Below, one piece after another: positions 112-64,000 of a stretch of DNA of 64,000 nt. The notes under the pieces were generated by a model. That model did not search any database. It saw nothing but the letters and a program-made list of their open reading frames with translations, and was not told where the DNA came from. How positions within the stretch are numbered: the stretch's first letter is position 1; each line of letters starts with the position of its first letter. This DNA is from Marchantia polymorpha subsp. ruderalis. Its lineage: Eukaryota > Streptophyta > Marchantiopsida > Marchantiales > Marchantiaceae. The stretch lies in assembly GCA_037833965.1 (NCBI GenBank), contig AP031352.1, positions 8,970,501 through 9,034,500 on the forward strand, given 5' to 3'. A program made the position numbers and the translations under genes.

Positions 112-3100
112 TTATGAGAAATGAAGTGTAAAGTTACTCCTCGGAACTGCAATCGCCTTGAGTGACTTTACAGAAAGATGGAAGGGGTAAGACAGTACAG
201 AGTTGGCTCCAGATCCGCGTGGACCGTATGAAGGCGCCACTATGGTCACGTTCACATCTAGCTCTCCAGGAACTGTAATGCGGGCTCCTCGAGCTGAACG
301 GTGTACTGTAAGTCCATCTTTCGTAGACACATATCCATTTTCGGCTATCTCAACCTGTGTCAAGTCCAGCATTGTGCGTCAGATAAGGTCACGGTGTAAT
401 CTTTGAAACATAACAGCAGTGCCGAAGGTGACAGTTCATGAGCCCATAATTTACTGGCCATTTACAATCTTCGATCTCATAGCGTTGTTAGACTGAAGCC
501 TCGTTAGCACATAACCTCCAACCATATGTACAGTGGAACACTTCGTGACTGGTTTGATAGAATGTCGCTTCTGACGTGAAAAGTTTAGTGTCTTACATCG
601 TCCACCAACATCGACCATTGCTTAGAAAAGTAGCTGGCATTCGTACGCGCATGTGCGTCAATGAAGATCTCTGAGTCTTTATACAAAAACCCGATCTCTG
701 ATATAAACTGCAACATCACAGACAACCCCATGAGTGAACGGGTTGCAGGTTAAGCTCGTCTTCAGTATGCAAGTGTTTTCGCCCTATGATTCATATTATG
801 TTGTGGCCTTGCAACCTAACTGATACTGACTACTGAATTGATGAGAATTTACTGCAGCTGAGAAGAAGGTTGTTCTTTCTAATCTGCCAATGCCGACCTA
901 CAGGCTGATATTCATTACTAACTGCTACATACTCCTGAACAACAGGTTCTAGAAACGAAGCATACTTTGACGGAATTTTGAACTCTTTACAAAGGTCTCG
1001 CATGTAGGTCAGGACAAGACATGAAATTATCTAAATCGTGGAACTCTAGAGTCAGGTCAGGAATATGATTAACAGGTCAGGAAGATTTATTCGGGCGTAC
1101 GATCGACTCACGAACGCACTGTACAGTTCTCTAGTCCTGTATACTACTACTGCTGATTGTAAGATTTACACTTAAAAAATCTGACGCCAAGAAACAAGGG
1201 CGAGAAAAGGCCTGGCAAGGAGCTTTACCGTTGTTCCTCTTTTGATTCCTGGGAAGACATGCATGTTGACGTGAATGTTCCTGTCAGAGACCACACAGTA
1301 ATCATGGCCGCTACTACCCTGGAAGTCGAAACGCTCTCCATGTTTACCGATGAAATGGGGATCGCCCTTGATGCTACCTTTGTGAGGTCGTCTGGCCGGA
1401 CAAGGAGGACATTGGCCATTGATGCACGGACGGAAAGGTGGAGGCGGAGGTGGTGATGGAGGAGGGGGAGGTGGGGGACTGGGTGGAGGAGGAGGACTGG
1501 GAGGTGGAGGACTCGGTGGCGGAGGGCTGGGAGGTGGAGGACTCGGAGGTGGAGGGCTGGGAGGTGGAGGACTCGGAGGTGGAGGGGAATGTGGAGGAGG
1601 AGGACTGGGCGGCGGTGGTGAATGTGGAGGGGGAGGGCTCGGAGGTGGTGGACTTGGAGGCGGTGGGCTGGGTGGAGGAGGAGATGGAGGAGGAGGAGGA
1701 GGAGGACTTGGTGGAGGGGGAGGCGATGGTGGAGGAGGCGACCTTGTGTGATAGTGAGGCGGAGGTGGTGATGGCGGAGGAGGACTGGGCGGAGGTGGTG
1801 ACGGTGGCGGAGGACTGGGTGGTGGGGGTGATGGAGGAGGGGGTGACGGCGGCGGGGGAGGGCTAGGCGGCGGAGGTGGAGAGGCCAGGCACTCTTGCGG
1901 TGTCCAACCGCAGAGTCCAGATGGAGGAACTGGACACTCCGTATCCAAATGACCCAGCGGCGCATACGATCGCTTCACAATTTTGCCTGCATTGAGAGCC
2001 AAGCAGCTCTGTCGGTTATGAATGTCCCCATGGTTAGATGCATCAGATATGACATATCTCGTTGTCCAGCTTCGAATATCTTTGATAAAAACCACCCATG
2101 CTTTAGACCAAAGGTAATCTCGATTCCAGGAGCAACGTAGAAATCATACTTCTTAATTTTCAGCCACAGGCGGCGCAGGCGCCATTTCAATATAGGTATT
2201 AACAATTTTGTTATCTACTTAGCCCCCACTTTCCTTTCGATGAAGGTATGCAATGTGCTTTCGGTTGAGGGGGTTTGTTACATCTACTTCTGAGGCTCAT
2301 ACCTTCCTGTAGTGAAATCTCGTATTTTAAAGACCCTGGCAGGGCTACATGGGCCTTTGCGCCCGCAGGCATCGGCCCTCCTGGCTCTGGAAATGGGATA
2401 AACTCTTCCATTGGCATGGGTTCCATTGCGGGTCCCATTGCTGGAGGACTCATCTGTAATTATATAAGTGAATCAGTCATTGTGCTTTCCTTCACTTGAT
2501 CACCGGACCTCCGTAATTAATTAGTGGTAGGCTTGCTAAAGGTTCCAAAGGGAAGAGTTCTTTATTGATTGCCAGTGATGATTAGTTGGTATGTTTCTTC
2601 AGGTTTTGTCATCGATTGAAGGTCAACGTTCCAGCTTACCATGCCACCTTTGCTGGGGCAGAAGTCACATGAGCTACCTCCGCACAGAACTGGGTTCTTG
2701 GCCGTCTGCAGGATAGTGAGTCAAAGTTTCAAAATCACATTCTCCTATTTTCAACGAGGCTAAGCAAGAAAAATTTTATATTTAGTTTCTGCCAACTCCT
2801 TACGTTTTTCAGAAAATAAACATTTTCGCAGACGAGCATTTTGATGCTAAGAGGTTTGCAATCAAGTCATACCGGGAAAGAGCAGCGACTGAAAGTGGCA
2901 TTTGCGAGTGCTTGGACATCCACAGATTGAGAAACCTATCAATTACACCATACGGATTTTACAGTATTAGTTTGAGAAGTTCCAACTCTGGTATGCGAAA
3001 TCTCTAGGAACTCAAAATCCCCTGTAAGAATTATATGGGCATTTTGAGCACAGTGAATTTGTTGGGTTGTAGCATCAAAATGCACTGTGGAGTAATCTCG

Positions 3101-6100
3101 ACTCTTGAAGGACAGGCCATTGATGCAGTTTCAACTTATATTGAGTCTGTCCTAAATGAAAATGCATTCGTCGTAGTTCTTATTGCTGATTTGATGTGGT
3201 GTCATTCCGCCTTGTAGGTCGAAGTAGGTTTGAGATAAACTTACTGGTTCTCCATCCGGGCCCAACACCATTCCTGAAAATTGGGTGTCATAAGCCAGAA
3301 GTTCAACTCCCCTAGTGTCATTGAACAGGGCCTTGTCCAACGTAATGTCTCCTCCAGCATCCTGCACAGTTGCACGACAGTTTAAGCATAACGATTTGCC
3401 GAGTCATAAAAATCACTTCCTAACCTTCCTATCAGCCTTCCGAGTGACTCATTAGTTTGTTTTTGTATGCGCTAGATGTATCCCATTCCAGCAAACACCG
3501 ACTCTCTCATCAGCATTCGTTCCTGGGACCTGATAACAGCGTAGAGCTTAATAGATTGTTTATCTTATCTCCTTCATACAGCTGCTTGATACAGGGATCC
3601 TGCAATGAACAGTCTGGCGCAGTCAGCAAGCTCTTTTCAGCACATGACTAAGGAATTTTATCGAAAGCCCACCGTAGCAGTGTTGTTCACGAAGTCCGAG
3701 CTCTTTATGTGTCCGACGGCACCAGCAGTACGCCAACCAAGGAAAACCGCTCCTCCAGATTCCTGAGAGCGCACGCTTCCGCGTCAGTGATAACACAAAA
3801 TCTGTCGGGGAAAGTATCGTCCCGAATGACAGCGTCATTTTCATAAGAATATGGAAAAGCTTATTCTTTGATCAGCTGCACGTCCCTTCCAGTATATCAA
3901 AGTCAACCATTTTTTTTCTCAAGTCCGTGTAGGGACTGGTTAGCGTACTTTTGTCGTAAGCTACGACTACACGAAAGGGTTGTATTTCTACCAAACTCGT
4001 TGAGTAAAGTCAGTGCTAGTCGGTAAAAGCTCAAACACACACTCTGCTGGGTCCTAACGAAGCTCCAGCTCTTTTTTTTAATAAAGTTCAAACTGGAATT
4101 TGTCGTATGTTGGAACACGTAGCAGCTCAGGAAAATAGTTTGCTAATCTGGAAAAGAGATTCACACTACTTGCGTGAAGAGAGAGAGAAAATGCGATTGA
4201 TTTGATTCCAGAATCCGAGTTCCTTGAAACCAACGCATCGTCAATATCTCGTTCCAACAGTGCTTCCCGAACTTTAAACTTGTAAGGTAGGGCCATGGAA
4301 AGGGGATAGAGTACCACGGCTGAGTTGTTTTCGAAGCGCGTGTTCAGAACATCGATCTTCGCGCCACCGGTGGCATCATCTTCGCAGCTCTGAGAAGTGT
4401 CATCCACATATATAGCACCTCCTCTATTGGCAAAGTTCATCAAGAATATGTTGTCGACGGATGAAGCGCAACTGCTGAGGCTGCATCCCGGCATAGCTTC
4501 CTCCATGGGAGCTGGCGCAGGAGCTGGTACAGTTTGCCAAGGCATCACTGCGGGCATGGGGACCATCATTGGCGTCATGGGCGTGGGAGCTGGCGTCATA
4601 GCGTTCATGGCTGGTGAGTCCGCCATTGGGCTCATCATTTGCGGCTCCTTCATCATCATGGTGGATGGCGCTGGTGCCAACAATTTCACAGCAGATGGAC
4701 CTGGTGTCATCATTGGGATGACGTCCATCGGCACCACTTCCATCTCTCTGCTTGCTGCCATCGGGAAACTGTCGGAAGATCCTATGTATATCGCTCCTCC
4801 TAAAGGAGCCTGTAAGGCAAACCATCGAATCAATGTCAAAATATTTGACATTGACGCACTCGACTTTACGACGTGCATGTTCTCTTGTGTATCGAATAGA
4901 ATAAACGTCAAAGAGAAGAACACCGTTGACTTTATATCTATATTCTTCTCATGTTTCTCTCAATTAAAGCCTGAAACTTATGAGTAGATCTTGTGCCACA
5001 TCTCATGGATCTGTTTCAACATGCACGTGTTGTTAGCAATGTCCGTCGGTGAAAAGCAGTTCTCAAATCAACTTATGCATCTGAGTTTCTTCCTTGTGGT
5101 AGTACTTGGACGATACACTTCCAAAACTCGCTACCAGAAAACTTCAAAGAACGAATTTCCTACCGTATTCATCAAAAACAGACTGCTGTGGAAGTAAGCT
5201 AAGCCACCAGTTTCAACAGCAACAGCTCCTCCGGCTTCCTGGTACGACAAGAGCAGCTTTTTGGTCAAATATTTGTATTGACTGTGTACATACAAGTGCA
5301 TTTTAGCCTCATAAATAAGGATAAGGTGAGTATCCCCGCACAGATGTTGTCTTTTCTTTCATAGTATTATGACATGTTTGAATATCAGGTGACCAACGCA
5401 TGCTGGTTCATGTCCATGAGGCCCCTTTCTAACTGGGCTGCGCAACCATCAGTTTGAAGGACTCCGGCCCTCGAAATCGCAGAAATGTAAGTGGGGATCT
5501 TGAAGTCCTTCGAACAACAGCTGCTTATGCCTTACCACTGTTGTATTTAATTGAGGACTCTTTTTTTTTCTTCCGAAGAGTTCTCATTATGATAAAAAAA
5601 AAACTACTGATTTATTTAAGATTCAAATGTGGACTGAAGGAGGCAAAAGCTTCATTCTTTAACTTCGTAAGGAGTTCCAAAGCCAGTTGGCGAGCTTTGT
5701 TTGGGCATGAGAAACATAAGGGATGCCAAAAGTATCAAGGAAAAATTGCAATACGGCTTTCAGCTACTTACAGTAGCTGTATTGTTGAAGAAGTGAACAT
5801 GGAAGGCCACGAACTTCCCGCCGGCACCAAATTGATTTGCACCGATACCAGACACAAGAACAGCTCCTCCATGTGTGCAATATCCATTACGAAGCTCGAT
5901 ATCTTTGAGAGTCAGGTACCCACTTAATCCCACGACGAAGTGGTTTGCTACCCACCTAGCATCCAACTCGCAAGGTTCCCCTCCCAAGCAGTTGCCCATG
6001 ATCGTAACTTTGCTCGTGATTTCTGGCAGAGGCACTGAATCTGGATTCATGAATCAACAAGGTGAACGAACAAGAGTTAGAGCTGCATAATCCACGACGT

Positions 6101-8623
6101 ATCAATAACAGTATAAATTCTTTTTACAGCTTAAAGTGGATTGCACACCCACAGAGCATACAGTTTCAGGAATGCCAATCTCACTTGCAAATTTGAATAT
6201 TAATTCCCTCAAGTGCTAGCCAGCTGGCAATGAAGAGTGAAGCTCAAGGTGATGTACGAACCGGAAACGTCAATATCTCTTGCAACAACGATCGTTGGGT
6301 TGCCAGCCAGCAGTGCTTGCACAAGCTCGAGCGCAGTCCATACCAATACTGTACTCAGAGGGGTTGGTGGGCTATCTGGATCGATATCTGCCACATCATG
6401 AGACCGTACGAATTACTCAGATCAGTTCACTGACATCGAACTCTATGAACCCTGGAATGAGTATGTCAGTGCTGTTTCAATTGTACTTCTTTACTTTGCT
6501 GAATAGTCCTGTAGTATATCCATGCAGTAAATCAGGTTGAGTACAGTGCAAACGATAATTTTCGTGTAAACGAATTTGTCAACATCAATTCTCTCTTCCA
6601 ACATACGATTAGTAAGTTCACATCAACGAAATTGATATCATTTTAACTTGAAACAGAGACTGTGGGACCAAATTTGAGTAGCTATCGACAATCAATTCTG
6701 AGCCTCTTCTGTGTACGTTATAACTTATTATAATTTACTCCAAATGATGTTCTCACTAGTTCGCTTCCCTTATTTTCAGTTTTGTAAATTGATGTACATA
6801 AGATGCTCCTTACGTCTGGGACTGAAACGTGTGAGCAAGATAGTAAAGTAAAACTAGAAGTGTGCTCAACTTGGAAGGATCGATTGAACCTTCACTTTGC
6901 TAATCAGGACCTACTACAGATTCCTGATGACTTTTGAAGCTAGAGGCCTGGCTGCTAGGTCCTGTTAAGCGATGTTGTTGCCGCTAATAACTTCTGGAGA
7001 GGAGTTGGAAGTGTTCCTGCAAGAAAGGTTTCAAGTCGAGATGCAAACCATGAAGATAAGGTTCGGGTCTGGTCGTGAGAGAACCGCCCGAGTTAGCGGA
7101 TACATGACACTGGCCTGTAGAGCCCAGAGGTAACATGGTATGGTTGGTTCGGGTACGAGTCCCGCTCTTGATGCTGGTAAAGGGTGACATGAAGTACTGC
7201 ACAGCCGGTCAGACATTCTGTCAGAGATTTTGAGCGCCAAGTTGGGCACTCACTGTAATTGCACGTTCTAGTTTCTAGTTTGTAGCTTTGCAGCCAGCTA
7301 CAGGCCTTATCTCTTCGGATCTACTACGTTTCGTGGAAGGCTTCTTCAACTAAACGTGCACAAAACTGACGAATGGAAAAGCTCCATTTTTGTCCAAGAT
7401 TCTGACCTGTCTGCGCAGCTCTGTAAAATAGGTCTCTTCGCCGTAGCCTTCATTTTCTGCAGGCAAATCAATTTCCAACTTGCTCAGAAAAAAGTAACCT
7501 CGTTTTGCATTTTAGAGCTGATAGAACTGTTCCTTAAGGCATTGACTAATGTTCCAGTAATTATTAATCCGGCTTCGATCCGCTGGAGGTGTGATCGTCA
7601 CACCAGTCGGAACAGAAGATTTTCAAACGCTCAAGCAGTGTAGCGAACAACGGGAAGCTCAATCTGGCGAGGTCCTCAAGGTGTTGGCTTCCCGTGCAAG
7701 GTTGACCATTGCCAGCCATGAGTGCTTAGCTCGCAAACTCCGAGGTCTTTAAAGTCCGGAACGCTGATTAGCGAAATGTGCCTCCGAAAGTGAGCGATGT
7801 TCGCTAGCAAGCGCCACGCGGACATCACGAAGCACAGCTCCGAGATTGTTACCAACAGTTCCCAAAGCTCAGTAGTTTGCATGGTTCGAGCGAGCAGCGA
7901 GCAACTCGCATCACGTCGTACTTTGCCTTTAGTTTAGAGGATTGCACAGTGCCCAAATGGACACACGTTCTGCCTTTCGCAATGTGTCAGAGCTTTAATG
8001 GCTGGATGACCGGATAACGATACAATCAAAAGCTGTATCGCAAACAGCTGCGATGGACCACGCAATCACTGACCCGCTGGTCACTGAAAGTTGTGGACAG
8101 AGCCCTTTAGCATTCAGAAGGGTCCTGTCTCGAAAGTGACCTCACATGCACAATGTGATGCACAGCTTTTTCTCGATTCACTGAATTTCATGGCTCCGTT
8201 CCGCATCGAAGGGACGTGCTGATTATTTTTCTCACACTACGAATTTTTTAGTCTTTCCCGAACGAGTAAGACGACCCGAGATCCAACTCACGGATGACTT
8301 CGATTTTGAGAATTTCGGTCGGCGAGTGTAGGTTCGGCAGGCCAGGTTCAGCTCGAGAGTCTCGACCGATCGATACGCGCACCTATCCGTAGATAGGTGC
8401 GCACCTATCAATGAAAGATTTAGTTGGGAGTGTTGATTGACCAGCCAGCAGTGGCAGGTGGTCGTTTTAGCATTCGATCGCAAATTCTATTTTAGATCGG
8501 TCGACTGGCCGAGGAAGCTGATGACGAACCAGAAACGGTGGATTGCGGCAGCAGCAGGAGAATTTGTAATACGATCAGAATGACCGCATTGAAGGTCTTT
8601 CTGGATCCCATGATCCTCATCAT
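112..8623 (-). CDS. Secreted chimeric wall protein: beta-helix + Met/Pro-rich + (SPPPP)n + root-cap/VWD-like domain
   Basis: Hand-assembled model of about 864 residues. Exons in transcription order: 8623-8530, 6387-6262, 6040-5772, 5238-5164, 4809-4315, 3762-3673, 3361-3245, 2705-2640, 2453-2303, 1986-1229, 707-597, 354-112. All junctions are GT-AG and all phases agree. Residues 1-31 look like a signal peptide (hydrophobic core FNAVILIVLQILLLLP). Residues 33-400 carry right-handed beta-helix repeats of the Pmp type (GGAV/GGAIY followed by F.NNTA). Residues 205-294 are Met/Pro-rich, 423-444 Cys-rich, 445-480 Met/Pro-rich again, 530-678 an SPPPP rod, and 702-864 a GDPHFIG...FDFQG domain resembling plant root-cap proteins. 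The role is inferred to be extracellular and structural. Uncertain points: exon 1 is joined by phase fit over a 2.1-kb intron; the 4315 donor could be 3 bases earlier; the 3' end could splice near 125-160 and continue past the left edge. Confidence 0.6.
1436..1882 (-). repeat. (SPPPP)n hydroxyproline-rich repeat tract
   Basis: About 149 codons of almost pure Ser-Pro(3-7) repeats inside the tenth model exon of the chimeric wall gene. Short breaks occur, such as PHYHTRSPPPP and several PPPPHSPPPP units. Extensin-type SPPPP units are normally hydroxylated and arabinosylated, so a rigid glycosylated rod joining the beta-helix to the C-terminal domain is expected. The plus strand of this stretch reads as glycine-rich and glutamate-rich frames, which are antisense artefacts of the repeat. 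Confidence 0.85.
4492..4761 (-). repeat. Met/Pro-rich low-complexity insert inside the beta-helix region
   Basis: About 90 residues inside the fifth model exon contain some 20 methionines together with many prolines (for example MTPAPTPMTPMMVPMPAVMP). The block interrupts two GGAI(Y) beta-helix strands and is followed by CSLSSC. A second Met/Pro block (about 7 Met in 30 residues) occurs at about 2365-2453. Spaced Met motifs can bind soft metals such as Cu(I) in other families; here that is only a speculation. Confidence 0.7.
6388..8529 (-). other. Putative long first intron of the chimeric wall gene
   Basis: About 2.1 kb separates the signal-peptide exon from the next exon. I recognise no gene here. 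The short open frames in it lack family features. It holds the nested palindromes at 8377-8409. If exon 1 is wrongly assigned, this stretch is instead upstream sequence. Confidence 0.45.
8377..8409. repeat. Nested perfect palindromes
   Basis: GCGCACCTATC (8377-8387) is followed after 4 bases by its reverse complement (8392-8402). The second arm is also the left half of a perfect 18-bp palindrome at 8392-8409. The three arms can form alternative hairpins or a cruciform. Function is unknown. Confidence 0.75.
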
Positions 8624-20099: not shown

Positions 20100-21701
20100 G
20101 TGGTAAGGTGAGGTGGCAGTGAGTGTACCAGTCGGAGAAAGAAAAGCGGGGCCGACGGAATTTGAAGTCATGGCGGACGAGCAGAGAGCGCCAGATTTAG
20201 CGGCGGAAAAGGCGACGCATCTGTGTGCCAGCGGAGCGCCTGAAAAGACCAGGCTGAGTTAAACCCGGATACGGAACGGGAGATCTGCAATACGAACAGA
20301 GTACTGTACAGGGGCGAAGAATCTGCTCATCGTCGGATGATCCCCAGCGTGGGAATCCACATTCACTCAACACGTACCGAACTGTACAGTCGTCCTGTAT
20401 TCTACTGCAGATGAGGCCTCCCACTGCAGTTAGTAAGAAAATGCGCATTCAAAGATGCAATGATGTGGTGAACGAGTTTAGATGGGAAGGTCTTTCCCTT
20501 CGTTGTCGTTATATCGCTGGGCCCACCGGAATTGGGCTATTTAAACGAACTACCATTTCCGAGGAGAAATTGCTTAGTCCCTCGTGCCAGAAAAATCTTG
20601 CAATTTGGACGCATCCGTGCTGTTGACTTTGCATCGGACGGTGAAGGGCGGGGGCTGGACGACTCACTGCTGCGCATTCGAGCACAACCAAGTGGAGGCC
20701 CACACGGCAACTGTGCAGCGCACTGGGGACGACCCCAGTCGACGTCGAAGCGAAGGGAAGGTGTGAGTAGTCGAGACCGCAGTCGAGGGGCCGGCTCGGA
20801 GGAGCTTCGCAGCGGCTCGGAGGCTCGCGGGCAGGCTCGCGCCAGGTGGTGAGGTCGGAGACTGATAGCTGGAGGTGGGCAGTTGGAGGGCGCGCGATGT
20901 GGACCGTGGCACGGCAGCTTCGTCCGGCGGGCTCGAGCGGAACCACGAGAGGAGAGCGAGGGGAGGGTGGAACTGCAGTCCGCGGCCGGAGCGAAGACGG
21001 AGTAGTATTAGGTCTGTGGTCGAGAGGGTACAAAAGCCCGAGCGCTTGCTCTGGCATTTCTTCATTGCAGAGTGTGTGAGCCAAGGAAGGCAAGGAAAGT
21101 TGCTTTCTCTTGGTTCAAAAATTGTCGGAGATCGATCGGGCGGATTCTGCGCTTTTTCCGGTGCTCGCCCATGTTCCAGTGAGTCAAGACGAGTCGAGTC
21201 GAGTCGATCGAGGGTCGGAGGTTGGGGTCATTCTTGGGAGAGCGGAGGAGGAGGAGGAGGCAGTGGAGTCGAGCCGAAGAGGCCGAGGCGACAGAGTGCC
21301 GGAGATTTGTGGTGTAGTGATCGATTGGGGTCTATTGGTGACAGATTTAGAGGGTTTCACGAGCGATTAGAGTGAATCTGGGGTTTGAGGTGGCCAAGTC
21401 GAGGAGATTTGACAGGCTGGATCGAGGACGTAGTCTTGGATCCCAGTCGATTTTGTTCTGCTTTCTTTCAGCATTGTCGTAGATCTGGTTGAGGAGTTGA
21501 GCTTCGGAGCCGTTAGTGCATACCCCACTGCCTGCTGCTGTCCGGGTGGCCCGAGTTGCCTGACATCTCGTGGGCAGCCAGTGGTCGTCTGTCGAGGGCA
21601 TGGCCGCAGCAGCTTAAGTGATCAAGGGCCCAAGAGGCGATACATTCGATTTTGCTCCCGTAGAACGTGTAGTTTTGGTCGATTCGCCTTACAGAGCCAC
21701 G
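20100..21701 (+). promoter_or_regulatory. Promoter and 5' leader region of the HMG-CoA reductase gene
   Basis: GC-rich, purine-biased DNA precedes the HMG-CoA reductase start. A TATA-like CTATTTAAA occurs at 20538-20546 and a weaker TACAAAAG at about 21029. The leader downstream contains GA-rich runs (21180-21300). Several open frames up to 194 codons on both strands overlap here but show no family features. Which element sets the transcription start cannot be decided by eye; an untranslated first exon is possible. Confidence 0.4.
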
Positions 21702-24242
21702 ATGAAGTCGGGAGATGGACTCAAGACTTATGGAGTGCAATCTCCTCCGAATGGGGGCCACAGACACTCCAAAAGGCAAAGGGAGGGCAAGCCTTTGGCC
21801 TCGGATGCGCTTCCTCTTCCCGTCGGCTTGACGAACAAAATTTTCATGGTCCTGTTCTTCTCTGCGTCCTATTACTTAATGCGTCGCTGGAGGGAGAAAA
21901 TCAGGACTTCCACTCCTCTTCATATGCTCAATCTTGGAGAAATTGCGGCTATCATTGCTCAGCTGGCCTCATTCATCTATTTGATTGGTTTCTTCGGTAT
22001 CGATTATGTGCAAACTTTTATAAACAAATCCATTGATGGTTCCTGGGATTCCGAAGATTACAGGGTGGCAGGAGTGAATTGCCAGGCTCAACCCGAGAGC
22101 TGCACTCCCAGCATTTCTCGCTCCCCTGCTCTGCTGAAGGGCAAGTCCCTGAAGGAGCATGAGAATGAGGACATTGCAGAGGCAGTGAGAAATGGTGAAA
22201 CCCCATCGTACTCCCTGGAGGCTGAGTTGGAAGATTGCGAGCGAGCTGCCGGCGTCAGAAGAAGAGCTGTCGAACTCACCACTGGCAGAACTTTGGATGG
22301 TCTGCCTTTGGAAGGAATGGATTACTCCAAGATTCTGGGACAATGCTGCGAGATGGTTATCGGCCACGTTCAAATTCCAGTTGGGGTTGCCGGCCCTCTG
22401 TTGCTTGACGGATTTGAATACACAGTTCCTATGGCTACCACTGAAGGTTGTCTAGTCGCCAGTACCAACAGGGGATGCAAAGCCATCGCGCAATCAGGCG
22501 GCGCTTCAAGCGTCGTTCTCAGAGATGGCATGACCAGAGCTCCCGTCGTTCGTTTTGAAAGCGCCAAGCGTGCCGCAGCACTCAAGTTCTTCGTCGAAGA
22601 TGCCAACAATTTTGATACTCTCTCAGTGGTCTTCAACAGGTATGTCGAAAACATGTGAACCAATACAAGTGGTGGTAACTGCTTTATCATTTTCGTTACT
22701 CCGTGTATGTCGTCGTGTCAGCTCAGAAACTTCCGCGCTTTGTTCTCTTTTGGGCGAATGTTTTGGTGGCTAGACCACTGAATTTCGGATCTAGATTCTC
22801 GGGGCAATTCTTGTCGCTTTTGTGGAACATGATTAGGTAGGTGACGTAGGGTCATGTGTGTGCTGTCGACACGTACGAAACATCCTCAATTTGGGAAAGT
22901 GTCGAAAGAGAATGTCCAATTCAGTTGTTGCAATGGCATGGGAGCTTATCACTGCTGTATTGTTGTTTCCATTTACAGGACCAGTAGGTTCGCACGGTTG
23001 CAGGATGTGTACTGTGTTCTTGCCGGGCGAAATGTGTACCTGCGGTTCAGTGCTTCGACTGGTGACGCCATGGGAATGAACATGATTTCGAAGGGTGTGC
23101 AAAATGTGTTGAACTACTTGCAGAGCGTGTTCCCGGACATGGAGCCCATTAGCATATCTGGTGAGCAAAATTTGGATTGATTCTTAGTCCTCTAGAACGT
23201 CTTAAAATCCTGCAACGCATTTGTGTGTACCAGTCTTAGAACTTGTGCACTCCCAAACGTTTTTGAATTTCTAGCTTGACGAAGAAGAGATTGTGTACTT
23301 ATACGATATACATGACTTGTCCAGGTAATTTCTGCTCCGACAAGAAGGCTACTGCAGTGAACTGGATTGAGGGTCGTGGGAAGTCTGTGGTATGTGAAGC
23401 GGTCCTCAAAGAGGAGGTTGTTCGGAAAGTTCTGAAAACGTCAGTGCCTGCCCTTGTGGAGTTGAACACGATTAAGAATCTCGCGGGTTCTGCTCTAGCT
23501 GGTGCTCTTGGAGGGTTCAATGCACACGCGGCGAATATTGTATCCGCAGTATACATAGCCACAGGTCAAGATCCCGCACAAAATGTCGAGAGCTCGCAGT
23601 GCCTGACAATGATGGAGGCCGTGAATGGAGGACGGGATCTTCACATTTCTGTCACAATGCCATCTATCGAGGTAGCCCTTTCTTTATCAATCTATACGTG
23701 GAAGAGAAACGACTCTTACTAGTGGACTTTGTTGTGAATTGTGGAGACCTGTTTTCGCTTTTTCCAGTGGTACGTTTCCTAAATCATGTTGTCTGCAGGT
23801 CGGAACAATTGGAGGAGGTACTCAGTTGCCATCTCAGGCAGCATGTTTGAATCTCCTTGGAGTGCGGGGTGCCAACGCAGAAATGCCTGGAGCAAATGCC
23901 GAGCAACTTGCCAGAATCGTCGCTGGTTCAGTTTTGGCGGGAGAGATTTCATTGATGTCGGCCTTGGCATCGAATACGCTTGTGAAGAGCCACTTGAAAT
24001 ACAACCGCTCCAGTCAAAACGTCGGTGCCTTGAGTTCGATGGGTTCCAGCCAAAATATCTCCTCGTTGGCTGCGAGCCAATCCAACCAGAATATCGCTGC
24101 TCTGACGGCAAGTTTGTCCAGCCAGAACATCAGTGCCATGCAGACTCCTCCTCTTCCTCCTTCTCTAGCGACGAATTTCAGGCACCGACGAACTGGCAGT
24201 GCTTCCCCTGCAGAGGTGGAGAAATCCCCCAAAGTTGAGTAG
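21702..24242 (+). CDS. HMGR: 3-hydroxy-3-methylglutaryl-CoA reductase (HMGR)
   Basis: Catalyses NADPH-dependent reduction of HMG-CoA to mevalonate, the committed step of cytosolic isoprenoid and sterol synthesis, at the ER membrane. Exons 21702-22639, 22979-23160, 23325-23671, 23799-24242; 636 residues, all GT-AG, phases agree. Two N-terminal spans (about 45-60 and 81-103) carry the plant signature [24 protein letters not shown]...[11 protein letters not shown]. Catalytic domain motifs: [14 protein letters not shown] (220-233), [13 protein letters not shown] (E248), [12 protein letters not shown] (341-352), [16 protein letters not shown] (K380), GQDPAQN (D456), GTIGGGTQL (491-499), [10 protein letters not shown] (H554). 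S560 corresponds to the SnRK1-type regulatory serine of plant enzymes. The ATG at 21702 is chosen as the first in-frame ATG; upstream codons to 21618 lack one. The 76-residue tail carries four 12-residue SSQN repeats, unusual for the family. Confidence 0.96.
24009..24152 (+). repeat. 36-bp coding tandem repeat (4 units) in the HMGR C-terminal tail
   Basis: Residues 560-607 form four 12-residue units: [48 protein letters not shown]. Spacing is exactly 12 residues, with no indels. The first unit begins on the serine of the KYNRS phosphosite. The units are polar and probably disordered or surface exposed. Confidence 0.9.
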
Positions 24243-46004: not shown

Positions 46005-48167
46005 TCATCGCCGGCGACGAGAGAGTCTCCAAGCGACGAAGAAGTAGGACAGCACTCGGTAAGCTAGGACGAAGCCGATCATTATCCCCACGTCCATCCA
46101 TTTTTGCATGTGGTCCACACCAGCGTCTCTCAGCACCTGCTTCCCGGTCCACGCGCAAAACCCTGTCGTGGGGTCGACCGGCACAAAACAGGTGTCCAAC
46201 TGGTTCTCGTACTCGTTGATGAGAAGAGCATCGAATGGATATTTGAACAGCGAAATGTAATGCATCCAAATCCAGTAATCGGGAATCTTGTCCTTCGCGA
46301 TGAAGAATCCAGAGAAGAGGAAAAACGCTCCCATGCACGCGCCAATGAGGGAGTTTCCCATGATAAAGTTCGGCGATATGGCCGCGAAGAACGAGACGAA
46401 GGCATTCGCCATGAGTAGAACGAGCCACATAACCAGGCAGAAGAAGAGGAACGCCGTGGCCGTCGGGTAAAGATAAACCAGCCAATAAGCCGGAATGCTG
46501 TACATGAGTCCCATCGCGAGCAAGAATGGAGCAAAAATGATCTGATTAGACAGCACGTACGACGAAACTCTGTACGCCCCCCGGGAGGTCTCCCGCATGA
46601 GAATGTGTCGTTCTTGCAGGAAAATCGGCAGCCCCTCCGTGGTGCCGGACAGGAAGAAGGTCAGAGTGAAGGCGAGAAATCCCAATCGTTCTGAAGCTCC
46701 TGCTTTATCTTTCTCCACTTTGAGAAAAATCGTCCCCAGGCACACGCCGGCGCACAGAGCCTGCACGGCCCGCGCTGTGAAGAGCTCCTTGGGGCGAAGA
46801 ATATTTTTGAAGAACCGCTGCGCCAGAACCACCACCTCCTGATAGCTGGAGTTGGCATACGTGACCTTCTCCGGCCCGCAGTCGTCTTCCGATCCCCAGG
46901 CGCGCTTCAGATACTCCTGGTATTCCAGATCGTCCCAGGCTTGTACCGAGCTCTCGTCGTTGCCATTCAAGAAGTCTTTCAGTTTGGGCAGATTGACGCC
47001 CGTGGCGTGCTGGGCTTTGATGGCGTCGGCCTCCTTGGAATTGATGGCATCCATGGCGTATTCCAGAACATTGACTTGGGGTGGAATCTCGTGGCCCTGA
47101 GCTTCGAGCCGCACGGCCAGAAGCTCCAGCGATCCGTGGTGCACCACCATCCCGTCGGCGAGGAGGAGAACGGAGTGCATGAGCTGAAGAAGGCGAACGC
47201 TCGGCTGGTGGATGCTGAGAATGACGGTGCGGCTGTGGGACTCCGCCATGAGTCTGAGCATCTCCACGATGTTCACGGCCGCTGCACTGTCGAGCCCCGA
47301 GGTCGGCTCGTCGAGGAAGAGCACGGCGGGATTGTGAATGAGGTCCACCCCGATGGACACCCGCCGCCTCTCTCCGCCCGAGACTCCTCGATTTAGCTCG
47401 TCGCCGATTCTCGTGTTCGCTGCATGGTCCAGCCCCAGCTCGGCCATGATGGTCTTGACTCGGGCAAGCTTTTCCGCATACGGCATCGTCGCCGGGAGCC
47501 TCAGCCTCGCGCTGAAGAGAAGAGTTTCCATTACCGTCAGGCAGGGGAAGAGGGCGTCGTCTTGCATGACATAGCCCGAAACTCGTTGGAATTGGTGCAC
47601 ATTCACCACTTGATTGTTGACGAGGATGCATCCCGGCGGACTCGTGGGTTTCACACGGCCCGCCAACACCTCGAGCAAAGTCGACTTCCCGGCACCGCTG
47701 GGACCTGCCACAGCCAGAAGCTCGCCGGGCTTCGCCTCAAAGTTTATATTCCTCAAAATATAGCGATCGAGTTTATCCTTAGGCGGCGCGTCTTCCTTCG
47801 GGGGGCCGCATCTCAATCTCTGGATGAAATCCCTCACGCCCTCGAACTTCGATTGTCTGCGAGGCGGTAACTTGTAGAACAAATTCTTGACGAAAATCTC
47901 GTACGTTCGGACCCTGTCCGGCGATGGGTCCACCGCGACCTTCGAATTTTTCAGCTGAAAGCTTCTTTCCCCATTGGGCGGGCTCAGTGGTCCAGGCGGG
48001 AACGGCAGCCAGCAGTTGCGCTTGCTCCTGCTCTGGATGCGATCTCCTCGGGAAGTCGGCGGAGCCGTCGTTTGAAATGCGAACGGCAAATCAACGACGA
48101 CTGATCCTTCGGTGTCCTCGGAAGACGAAACAGCGTCTCCCTCCGAGTCCATCTCGCCCGATGACAT
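46005..48167 (-). CDS. ABCG-type half-size ABC transporter (ABCG5/ABCG10-like)
   Basis: Intact single-exon frame of 720 residues. The nucleotide-binding domain comes first: Walker A GPSGAGKST (155-163), Q-loop MQDD (201-204), signature VSGGERRRVSIG (262-273), Walker B LFLDEPTSGLDS (283-294) and H-loop His320. The membrane domain with six predicted spans follows from about 445 and includes the ABCG hallmarks FLSGTTEGLPIFLQER and YWIWMHYISLFKYPFDAL. The NBD-then-TMD order and 720-residue length fit plant half-transporters (WBC), and absence of introns fits the clade of Arabidopsis ABCG5/10. A dimer partner is required. Likely at the plasma membrane, exporting lipids, cuticle precursors or hormones; the substrate cannot be told from sequence. 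The N-terminus (1-85) is Ser/Pro-rich and probably disordered. Ends in a basic LSRRRR tail. Confidence 0.95.
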   Translation of the reverse strand: MSSGEMDSEGDAVSSSEDTEGSVVVDLPFAFQTTAPPTSRGDRIQSRSKRNCWLPFPPGPLSPPNGERSFQLKNSKVAVDPSPDRVRTYEIFVKNLFYKLPPRRQSKFEGVRDFIQRLRCGPPKEDAPPKDKLDRYILRNINFEAKPGELLAVAGPSGAGKSTLLEVLAGRVKPTSPPGCILVNNQVVNVHQFQRVSGYVMQDDALFPCLTVMETLLFSARLRLPATMPYAEKLARVKTIMAELGLDHAANTRIGDELNRGVSGGERRRVSIGVDLIHNPAVLFLDEPTSGLDSAAAVNIVEMLRLMAESHSRTVILSIHQPSVRLLQLMHSVLLLADGMVVHHGSLELLAVRLEAQGHEIPPQVNVLEYAMDAINSKEADAIKAQHATGVNLPKLKDFLNGNDESSVQAWDDLEYQEYLKRAWGSEDDCGPEKVTYANSSYQEVVVLAQRFFKNILRPKELFTARAVQALCAGVCLGTIFLKVEKDKAGASERLGFLAFTLTFFLSGTTEGLPIFLQERHILMRETSRGAYRVSSYVLSNQIIFAPFLLAMGLMYSIPAYWLVYLYPTATAFLFFCLVMWLVLLMANAFVSFFAAISPNFIMGNSLIGACMGAFFLFSGFFIAKDKIPDYWIWMHYISLFKYPFDALLINEYENQLDTCFVPVDPTTGFCAWTGKQVLRDAGVDHMQKWMDVGIMIGFVLAYRVLSYFFVAWRLSRRRR

Positions 48168-49144
48168 GAAACTCGACTCGACAATTTCGATTCAAGCTTA
48201 CCTCAACAAACCCCGTGCTCGGACTGCGCGACGAGCTGCATGGGCTTCGAACTCCGCTCGATCATTCGAGCTTGCCAGGGCCTCGAGGGAGCTGGGCACT
48301 ACGGCACTCGTCGCAGCGCAACGAAGGAATGTAGGCGCGCATTGATCCACTCACCGTCTTCGGAGCTCTGTCGATCTTGCTCGACCCCAGCGGCGGATGC
48401 AAGAAAATGGCGCGGGGACCGTTTTGTCCACCGGGTGACCTTGAACGCCCGCCCGGACGACCGCCGGGAGCCTAATTCTGATACTCGAGTTTCATGGAGC
48501 AGCGAGATCAGATTTTCTAGATTTTTACTTTGTTTTCCGTCAATCATTTCGTTCGCAAGACCTTCGGCTGGACGCTTTCTTAACGCCAAGAAAAGGTCGC
48601 GGAGAATTTCGATCGGAGCTGGGATTGGGTAGACACAATTCTCCAGAAATACAATTGTTTACAGCAGCGACAACGCGTCCTGCATTGACTGCGTACGTTA
48701 TCCCGGCGCGCATGTACTGCGTAGGTGACAAATTTCGACCTGCGCATTTCTCTCAGAGCTAAAGACTATTCCAACATTCCTCGTAGCTCAATTAGTCTAC
48801 GTACTCTACGAGGAAACAAAATTAAACGCCAAAAGGATGGGAAGACCCCATCCAGTCGCATACGGAACAATCCACCGGACTAGGATGGGGCTAGACCCCA
48901 AAGGACCCCAAATGTGTCACGTAGTCTGCTCTACAGCATGCATTATGTTTTCTGTTTGTCGCCTGGAACCTCTTCGTAATCAGAGGTTTTCATTTATTAT
49001 TTTCATTTTCACTTTTTCCAGTATAGTTATTTTTTTGCAATTCATGAAGGATGTTTTTATCGATCAGTCATATCTTCCTTTCATTATTCGGAAGCTCTCG
49101 CCTCCGTGTGAACGAACAGATGCAAGCTGACAAAAATATTTGGA

Positions 49145-61165: not shown

Positions 61166-64000
61166 TCAACCAACAGAGAAGAGAACTTGGTCATTCTTGC
61201 TCGTGGCTTGAGTTTCGAGAAAATTCTCAGAACCAGCAACAAACATGATAGAATGTTTGTCGTCTCCAACCGAGAGCACATGCTTGCCAATACCCAGTAC
61301 CTTTGTCCCACTGGACGTCACGGTACTCAAGTCACGGCAAGCATTTATAACCAAGTTCCAAGTATGCTGCGACTCAGCCTCAAGATGAACACGCTCAAAG
61401 GCTATAAGTTGTCTTAATGGGACGCCATCCCTGCCACTACCAGGAGGAGTAGAAAAGAGCATGAGGACATGACTTCCGCTCCGGAGCCCTTCATTTTTCA
61501 CTTCGATCTGAATCTCAAAGGACGAATCTTCACATCTATTCAAGTCATGATCTGTGCATTGAATCAGATTGCTCTCAACAAACTTGTGCTCGTGGTAGCA
61601 AGCTTGTTGCTGTAGATTGGGTGCCACAACAACAGCAGGAGCCGACTTCACTGTATGTCTGAAGGTCGTGTACGATAGCCCTGAACCAAAAGGGTAAACA
61701 ACCTCTTCAGTGTAGAAGCGATAGGTCCTCCCAGGATAACCTGATGATTCGTTGGGACGCATGTGCATATCTGTCATATTCACCCGGGTGAAGGACTCTG
61801 GATACCACGTTATTGGAAGGTTTCCTCCTGTAGAAGAAAATAACTCAAGGTGAAGTTCCAAAACTAAAAACAAGACAAACATGATTCTATCCTTTACAGA
61901 TACTAAAAGGATTTCGGTTGCAGATGCAGATTTTGCAAACAAAAAAAAAACATTTGTAAACAGTATTTTAGCTTTCAGAAAAGATTCACGATTATTCCAT
62001 GAAATAACAAAAGCAGAGGCACAAAAGCATTCAATGCCATGCTGTCAGATCAAATGATTAGAGGCATATCTCGTGGCCAGTTCTTCATACCATCAGACTA
62101 CAGAGGAAATTTCATTTACCTGGATTCCGCTCTCCAAAAATGATCTCTGCAAGTGCTTGCCCTCCAGCTTGCCCGGGATAACCTACCCACAAAATGCTGC
62201 CAATGTTTGGATCGTCTTTGGCAAAAGATACATCCACCGGACCACCCGACATGATGACAAGCACAACAGGGCCTTTGGAAGCTCTGGCCACGGAAGAAAC
62301 AAGCTCCTGTTGATGACCAGGTAGCAGCAGACTTGTTCTATCGAGTCCCTCTTTTTCTTCACTCAGACTAAGTCCTACCACGATTACGACGGCATCCGCT
62401 CCAAGTGCCGCTTCGGATGCATCGCTAAAATCGTCTTCCTCGCAGAATATGCTAGAACATCCTGCTTGATAGTCGATGTTGCTGACAAACATACTCAGAC
62501 CTTGAGCTGGTGTGATGTACGTGCAAGGAATGCCTGCAAATCAGAAGACATTAATTTTTCTTAAGAGTGCAAACAACTCAAGAGACATGTTTTTCAGAGA
62601 TAATTTTTCAAAGTGAAGGTGATTCAGTAACCTCACCAGCGTAGCTGCCAAGCATTCGGAACTCTTCATCGGCTGCGCTAGGACCCACAACAGCTAAGGA
62701 CGATACAGTTTCTCTGGAGAGTGGCAAGGTCGTATTATCATTCTTCAGGAGGACGATGCCTTGCAGTGCGGCCTCCAGTGCTAGATCTTGGTGCTCGTGA
62801 GTACAGACATCCTGTGGGCCTATATTTCTGTAAATTTGAGTTTGAGAAAGACCATCAAAAAGTCCCAGTCGCATCCGCACCAACATTAGATTAGTAAGTG
62901 CTCTATCAACCTCCTCCTCCGACAGCTTGCCTTCATCTACAGCCAATCTTCCATGATTGCTGATTGTTATTCCACAGTTGAGATCCATGCCTGATTTGAG
63001 CCAGAAAGTAGACCAAGGAAACTTATCATATTGTATTCACAGGAGATATATGTGTGAGGGTCAACATTCATATAACCAATCAAATCGTCTAGAGACAACG
63101 GCGCAAAAGTCAAAAGCTGTCGATGCAAGTTAAATCTGGTTCTATGATTATCTTGTCCACTTCATCAGAGTAGGCCTTCTTCCAAGTACCTGCCTGCACA
63201 GCGTCTGCAACAGCATCTTCCAGAGTTAATGCGTACTTGGGGTCATTGATCATATCGTAGACAGCATCGCAGTCTGAGACTATGTACCTGAAAGGATACA
63301 TTTGATTGCAGAATTAGATGTCACATGTAACGTCACTCTGTTATAACAACAGCTAGAAACACATCTGCCATACTCTACAAACGGGCAAGTTGTTAACAGC
63401 GCAGAATGAAGCAACAGAGCGAAGTAAAACAAGAACTAACACACTTAGGTGGGACGATGAGTGCACGACTCCTGAGCTCGAGACAGTTTGGTTGTTTCTT
63501 GAGGATTGGTTAGAGATGTTTTACCCATGAAAATCCCACTTTTCTCTGACAGTCTTGGTGAGGAGCTTGTGATGTGCGCACGCCGGCGTCCCATTCACTC
63601 GAGTGTACGCGCACATAAGACTACTAGCTTGTGCTAGTTCGATACAGCTTTGAAAGGGTGGATTGAAAGTATCTTCCATGTCTTGATCTGTCACCTGACA
63701 CAAGTGAGCAGTTCCAACATATTCAAAAAGTTTCAGCTACAAAGCAACCTATAACTCTTATCCGAATGAGACTTACATCTAAGAGTAGACTGCATCACGT
63801 CATACAAGATGTTGAAACCTTCGCAGAGGTACAACATACCAGCGCGTCAAAATGATCACGATCCACGCCTCCCCAACCTTCTAGATCATACGCAGTAAAA
63901 TGCTTGCAGCAACTAGAAGTCTTCAATTTAAAATTTGGATCCTCGTTCCTCTGCGCTTTTAGCTCGTTTCCTTCTTGCATTCCGACTACAAAGTTAGCGG
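61166..64000 (-). CDS. Beta-D-xylosidase, glycoside hydrolase family 3 (3' part; 5' end beyond window)
   Basis: Hydrolyses terminal xylose (often also arabinofuranose) from hemicellulose in the cell wall. Visible exons: >64000-63840, 63694-63525, 63287-63190, 62990-62637, 62533-62120, 61827-61166; GT-AG with agreeing phases, about 619 residues. The GH3 N-terminal barrel is seen in [41 protein letters not shown] and [13 protein letters not shown], with YIVSDCDAV carrying the nucleophile Asp. AGMDLNCG and [10 protein letters not shown] follow. The second domain has [20 protein letters not shown] and [16 protein letters not shown]. The C-terminal fibronectin-III-like part is preceded by [34 protein letters not shown] and GLSYTTF. 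The plant BXL subfamily is about 770 residues, so roughly 150-200 N-terminal residues, including the signal peptide, lie beyond the right edge. Substrate preference cannot be decided from sequence. Confidence 0.93.

Follow-up and report, generated by a model that had tools for sequence, protein, structure and literature searches.

A Marchantia polymorpha gene that appears to join Pmp-type beta-helix repeats, an SPPPP rod and a root-cap domain with GDPH residues

The locus and the gene model

The window, i.e. the whole stretch of 64,000 nucleotides analysed here, corresponds to C3:8970501-9034500 in the coordinates of the assembly. Three groups of open frames in it were assigned by eye: the plus-strand frames at 21618-24242, which we take to be HMG-CoA reductase-like; a minus-strand frame of 728 aa at 46005-48191, presumably ABCG half-transporter-like; and the minus-strand frames at 61166-63036, which we assume to be GH3 beta-xylosidase-like. 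Nothing in these neighbouring genes suggests a functional cluster.

The gene considered below is encoded on the minus strand. Its 12 exons in the window, from 8623 to 172, were joined in silico; the resulting frame is free of stops, the phases are consistent and all introns have the form GT...AG. With two exons to the left of the window the full model comprises 14 exons and 966 aa, or 967 aa if exon 5 uses the donor at 4314. Residue numbers refer to the 966-aa model (donor 4317), later residues being shifted by one with donor 4314. The domain searches were run on the same model, that is, without the extra Val of donor 4314. The features are listed below with window coordinates unless stated otherwise; splice scores are on a generic scale.

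8530..8623, minus strand: exon 1, residues 1-31: the start, with a hydrophobic stretch resembling a signal peptide (joined model; donor score 1.8)
6262..6387, minus strand: exon 2, beta-helix N-cap (both borders in phase 1; donor 0.9)
5772..6040, minus strand: exon 3, beta-helix part in which GGAV and FFNNT occur for the first time (joined model, motif count)
5164..5238, minus strand: exon 4, one coil, GGAV...FLMNT (joined model, motif count)
4315..4809, minus strand: exon 5, coils with GGAI, FLMN, GGAI and FENNS, and the Met/Pro-rich insert (end 4318 in the 966-aa model)
4486..4767, minus strand: Met/Pro-rich insert within the beta-helix, residues 203-296 (composition)
3673..3762, minus strand: exon 6, one coil, GGAV...FVNNT (donor -0.7, acceptor 0.4)
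3245..3361, minus strand: exon 7, last recognisable coil, GGDI (joined model, motif count)
2640..2705, minus strand: exon 8, end of the head with three Cys (joined model)
2303..2453, minus strand: exon 9, second, shorter Met/Pro-rich stretch (joined model, composition)
1229..2100, minus strand: exon 10, Cys-containing linker, SPPPP rod and start of the DPH domain (acceptor -2.5)
1436..1882, minus strand: SPPPP rod, residues 567-715, 26 SP(3+) blocks (motif count)
1352..1366, minus strand: GDPHF, G739-F743, with the proposed cleavage site Asp740-Pro741 (alignments with paralogs and FCGBP)
1319-1321, minus strand: Gln754, D+14 (paralog alignment)
597..707, minus strand: exon 11, DPH domain, aligned to ...TWVQGLGIMF... 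of the paralogs (joined model, paralog alignment)
172..354, minus strand: exon 12, DPH domain, continued to the left of the window (donor -3.5)
C3:8970405-8970459, minus strand: exon 13, left of the window (window -41 to -95, zero counted; acceptor 0.6)
C3:8970054-8970252, minus strand: exon 14, left of the window, then TGA (window -248 to -446, zero counted)

The earlier note on this DNA had described 12 exons with fully consistent phases and had placed the end of the gene at 112. The exons and phases stand, whereas the end does not. The version that terminates at 112 was rejected because its root-cap domain is truncated at the C-terminus and the Pfam match is lost: no domain was found by Pfam in this version, while addition of exons 13 and 14 yields Root_cap (PF06830) with an E-value of 6.3e-8 and 33.1 bits against the cut-off of 27. 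Most likely, exon 12 stops at 172 and two further exons follow outside the window. There, an open stretch ending with SVHGVLG is followed by a good donor (4.2), a 152-base intron and QTYQETKQ...DILTPDCKYTQFEV. Exons 13 and 14 thus restore GVLGQTY across a phase-1 intron, as well as the DC....F end, both characteristic of the family; in the alignment, G[VI]LG[QR]TY is conserved in all six paralogs described below.

Several splice sites are weak: among the donors, those of exon 12 (-3.5), exon 6 (-0.7) and exon 2 (0.9); among the acceptors, those of exon 10 (-2.5), exon 6 (0.4) and exon 13 (0.6). For exon 5, the donor at 4317 proved inferior to that at 4314 upon rescoring (-8.0 vs -1.3), both being in phase. 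The latter adds one Val after residue 352, and the coil end FENNSAV then equals FFNNTAT and FVNNTAT in length.

Codon scores, trained on frames chosen by eye in five stretches of the window, prefer the chosen frame in 12 of the 14 exons, the exceptions being exons 9 and 10; margins may be small, as in exon 12 (0.02 vs 0.01), and in exon 13 the scores are negative in all frames. These data bear on the possibility that the locus is a pseudogene or an untranscribed relic. The weak splice sites would agree with that, as would the single occurrence of the beta-helix in the genome; against it stand 966 codons that remain open across 14 exons, and the frame specificity of the codon scores in 12 of them. 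We consider a relic very unlikely.

The predicted beta-helix head

Residues 32-443 contain five GGA[ILV] and five FxxN motifs, the mean numbers in shuffled sequences being 0.09 and 0.78, respectively. None of 100,000 shuffles reached both counts; the GGA count alone was never reached, and the FxxN count alone was reached in 53 shuffles. The Pmp-type repeats recognised in the earlier note from the letters alone are borne out by profile searches. The match to Pfam Chlam_PMP (PF02415) has an E-value of 6.5e-8, or 1.8e-9 if the Met/Pro-rich insert is left out, and the corresponding scores of 32.5 and 37.3 bits exceed the curated cut-off of 20.6. NCBIfam POMP_repeat (TIGR01376) is matched in four stretches with an E-value of 2.1e-9 and 36.8 bits, the cut-off being 15. 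The likeness to chlamydial Pmp proteins (PF02415, TIGR01376) thus consists in beta-helix repeats with GGA[ILV] and FxxN. The difference is that here the repeats belong to a plant protein with a rod and a root-cap foot; the C-terminal membrane barrel of the Pmp autotransporters was not found, Root_cap being the sole Pfam match at the C-terminus.

The four introns between exon 3 and exon 7 all have phase 0 and are located between coils, after an FxxN-type end and immediately before the next GG. This is the pattern expected if the repeats grew by exon duplication. We read the head as a right-handed beta-helix of the Pmp type in which several coils correspond to one exon each.

The Met/Pro module proposed earlier is present, but it is not a separate one: its main part (residues 203-296) forms a loop inside the beta-helix, predicted to be thrown out from one coil, and a second short stretch is found in exon 9. 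The slice 204-296 (93 residues) contains 20 Met and 22 Pro. It is possible, judging by composition, that the methionines of the insert bind metal or oxidants. Models of single exons were uninformative about the fold (exon 3, pLDDT 37.8; exon 5, pLDDT 41.3 and no strands).

Many polysaccharide lyases and hydrolases fold as right-handed beta-helices. The head might therefore be such an enzyme, attached to the wall and acting on polysaccharides. However, the search for enzyme families in the beta-helix returned only Chlam_PMP from Pfam at E-values up to 10, and the NCBIfam search only POMP_repeat and rhombotarget A, the latter far below its cut-off. Since neither collection yielded an enzyme family, the enzymatic reading was rejected as most improbable. 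The head most likely provides a surface for binding or adhesion. Solved structures contained no match to the beta-helix sequence. In the genome of the plant itself (assembly of 241,466,482 bases in 9 contigs), the beta-helix search returned only the exons of this gene, exon 3 being unique. The genome scan with PF02415 carries no weight, as it gave no match even to the gene itself.

The rod and the continuity of the chain

Between the head and the foot, the extensin-like SPPPP rod, another module of the earlier note, was confirmed by counting: of its 149 residues, 116 are Pro and one is Tyr, and 26 Ser precede runs of at least three Pro. Extensins are secreted proteins with repeated Ser-Pro(3-5); the 26 SP(3+) blocks and the hydrophobic start of exon 1 agree with this, secretion being predicted. 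Classical extensins carry Tyr cross-linking motifs such as YxY; with one Tyr in the 149-residue rod, this protein does not belong to the classical cross-linking type. We expect hydroxylation and arabinosylation of the rod, and a stiff conformation. A search with the 84-aa linker found the linker itself and one match at the chance level (E 0.109, two stops).

The rod and the root-cap domain could belong to a gene of their own (exons 10-14) that was wrongly joined to a beta-helix gene (exons 1-9), the more so as the acceptor of exon 10 is poor (-2.5) and Populus has an extensin with Root_cap as a gene of its own (PMC5073881). In the frame of exon 10, however, there is no Met ahead of the rod: the first Met is at residue 294 of the open frame, and the rod is at 88. 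Moreover, among the 16 ATG starts with at least 20 codons between 3244 and 1900, none has a signal-peptide-like core; the hydrophobic 12-residue mean is at most 1.48 for these starts vs 3.43 for exon 1. A separately secreted rod protein would therefore have no start, which supports the fusion. The intron before exon 10 also has phase 1 on both sides. Two neighbouring genes are thus quite unlikely, and the logic of the sequence agrees with the original view that the exons encode one chain.

Module pairs related to this chain have been published. In AnIBP of Ancylonema nordenskioeldii (PMC10796529), a secreted beta-solenoid head is likewise combined with a C-terminal DPH domain that ends in root cap, and introns are likewise located inside the DPH domain. 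The AnIBP head is a DUF3494 ice-binding solenoid, however, rather than Pmp repeats, and the DPH domain follows directly after the head with no SPPPP rod in between. The Populus chimeric extensin PtEXT30 shares with our protein extensin repeats, Root_cap (PF06830) and a predicted signal peptide; it differs in having 467 aa, repeat counts of 5/0/0/0 and Root_cap as the sole domain listed, with no beta-helix (PMC5073881). Hence, the claim that the combination is undescribed does not extend to the two pairs; the triple of beta-helix, SPPPP and Root_cap was not found in the largely open-access literature searched. No paper in the same literature had 'GDPH' together with 'root cap', and neither root cap nor beta-helix occurs in the main text of the Marchantia cell-wall proteome (PMC8792609).

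The root-cap foot and its GDPH site

The DPH domain has been defined as a predicted beta-sandwich plus root cap, about 280 residues in total, and the survey in the same paper reports only streptophyte hits at E < 1e-10 (Prochazkova et al., PMC10796529). Members carry it at the C-terminus, with DPH or DPR at its start and the root cap at its end. Six further Root_cap loci of the Marchantia genome can be aligned to foot residues 716-966 at 27-35% identity; as the genome was searched exon by exon, six is a lower bound. By comparison with these paralogs the foot is a DPH domain, shorter here (740-966) and without the CRR-type tail. The root-cap-like nature of the GDPHF domain, already suspected in the earlier note, follows from the Root_cap profile, which passes its cut-off once exons 13 and 14 are added. 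In the stretches scanned on the flanks of the six paralogs, no beta-helix or rod repeats comparable to those of this gene were detected by the patterns used. The sole pattern matches were a chance-like GGAI...FVRN at one locus (L046) and PPPPPPPP at another (L045).

Among the seven Root_cap genes compared, only this one starts the domain with GDPH and keeps all of G739, D740, P741, H742 and Q754. The six paralogs start with DPR; of the five positions, all six keep only Asp and Pro, position +2 being Arg, position +14 His and position -1 never Gly. What appears to be new here is therefore a Gly, a His and a Gln (+14) around Asp-Pro in a Root_cap gene, a set unique among the seven aligned sequences.

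In one VWD domain of FCGBP, the GDPH motif cuts itself between Asp and Pro (Yeshaya et al., PMC10880436). The Asp and His changes made in that study prevented the cleavage, and changes of the Gln at +14 had a partial effect (section 2.4 of PMC10880436); ITIH heavy chains are named there as possible overlooked GDPH cases. The corresponding residues, Asp740, His742 and Gln754, are present in our protein, with cleavage itself predicted.

The similarity to VWD extends to a short region. The search with a 74-residue query around GDPH against the FCGBP VWD repeats gave an E-value of 1.7e-11 summed over five repeats, and 1.6e-6 with a 253-residue query, but the alignments cover 19-25 residues each and no single repeat is significant (best i-E-value 2.8). 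Pfam VWD (PF00094) matches none of the seven family members at E up to 1. The VWD-like module of the earlier note is thus retained as a short match of the GDPH region to the FCGBP repeats, and not as a Pfam VWD domain. ITI_HC_C matches four of the seven members, this protein not among them, with a best E-value of 6.6e-5 and scores below the curated cut-off in both of the matches listed. Neither the family-alignment profile nor the single DPR paralog tested matched FCGBP or solved structures. Two genome scans carry no weight: that with PF00094 was silent everywhere including the controls, and that with PF06668 missed paralogs that match PF06668 as proteins. We read these alignments as pointing to a foot that is probably a distant VWD/ITIH-like sandwich, with the cleavage residues retained in this member.

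The Cys that holds the first strand after cleavage usually lies just before GDPH. None is found here, a point against cleavage. In this respect, as well as in the lack of a Pfam VWD match and in cleavage being only predicted, our protein differs from the GDPH-cleaving VWD domains (FCGBP and mucins, as treated in PMC10880436); it resembles these and the ITIH C-terminal domains in the GDPH motif and the extracellular context, and shares Gln at +14 with the FCGBP domain studied.

The family alignment was also used to scan genomes of Bacteria and Archaea for the domain. Of 249 pattern matches, one encodes a relative, found in a Deltaproteobacteria MAG: identity is 24% over the domain, and the score is 39.7 bits, compared to at most 26.2 in 1,000 of 1,000 shuffles. 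Within the phylum of this MAG, the domain occurs in two of 282 genomes, the source genome included (L050:3001-3693 and L052). Both bacterial relatives have GDPHF, Met rather than Gln at +14, and GLLGQTF or GLMGQTF. The best piece of the alignment covers query residues 20-77 only. As the GDPH end carries the score, the alignment across the C-terminal part adds little to the support for exons 13 and 14. These relatives suggest that the DPH-type domain is probably not strictly confined to streptophytes. The relation lies below the E-value cut-off of the survey in PMC10796529 and therefore does not contradict it.

The same fused protein could have a foot that does not cleave, the DPH/root-cap domain serving only for anchoring or oligomerisation, as proposed for AnIBP. 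The spot ascribed to AnIBP lies near 55 kDa, the mass of the full-length protein, although mass spectrometry did not identify the spot (PMC10796529, section 15); this argues against cleavage in AnIBP. All six paralogs keep the domain without the His and the Gln, so its shared role needs no cleavage, and the bacterial relatives also lack the Gln. Against a purely anchoring foot speaks the retention of all five positions in only this member of the seven. We regard the non-cleaving foot as an appreciable but less likely alternative.

The reading we favour, with a little better than even confidence, is a secreted, glycosylated protein of the wall or mucilage with about 966 residues, arranged as head, stalk and foot, the foot probably cleaving itself at Asp740-Pro741. 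The foot, whose distant kinship with VWD/ITIH-type beta-sandwiches is probable, would most likely anchor or oligomerise the protein. Its GDPH and the Gln at +14 make self-cleavage between Asp740 and Pro741 probable, under the mildly acidic conditions of the secretory pathway or the wall. The sequence itself shows the gene structure, the domain matches and the kept cleavage residues, from which secretion, glycosylation, the fold, cleavage and the adhesion role are inferred. The combination of this domain with two further extracellular modules, with the cleavage residues kept, offers a simple testable mechanism for the family.

In a further extension, the GDPH chemistry of animals would have a counterpart in this plant protein: a self-cut at Asp740-Pro741 at mildly acidic pH would provide the head and rod with a new C-terminal Asp. 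They would then come free of the root-cap domain or, by analogy with the heavy chains of inter-alpha-inhibitor, which form an ester with glycosaminoglycan, be covalently tied to a wall or mucilage polysaccharide. The DPR paralogs would have lost this ability. We consider this extension speculative and rather unlikely. If cleavage or the polysaccharide ester is real, it would represent a new way to process or anchor glycoproteins of the plant wall.

The genome contains 282 matches to a GDPHF pattern (36 for the control). Most of the 100 matches listed are the 15-mer GGCGATCCGCATTTT, and the GGNGAYCCNCAYTTY counts, inflated by one repeated 15-mer, were left unused as evidence. Among the matches listed, 33 are located on the 5.6 Mb contig C1 and 16 on the 31.6 Mb contig C2; because of this distribution, GGCGATCCGCATTTT is probably a repeat element.
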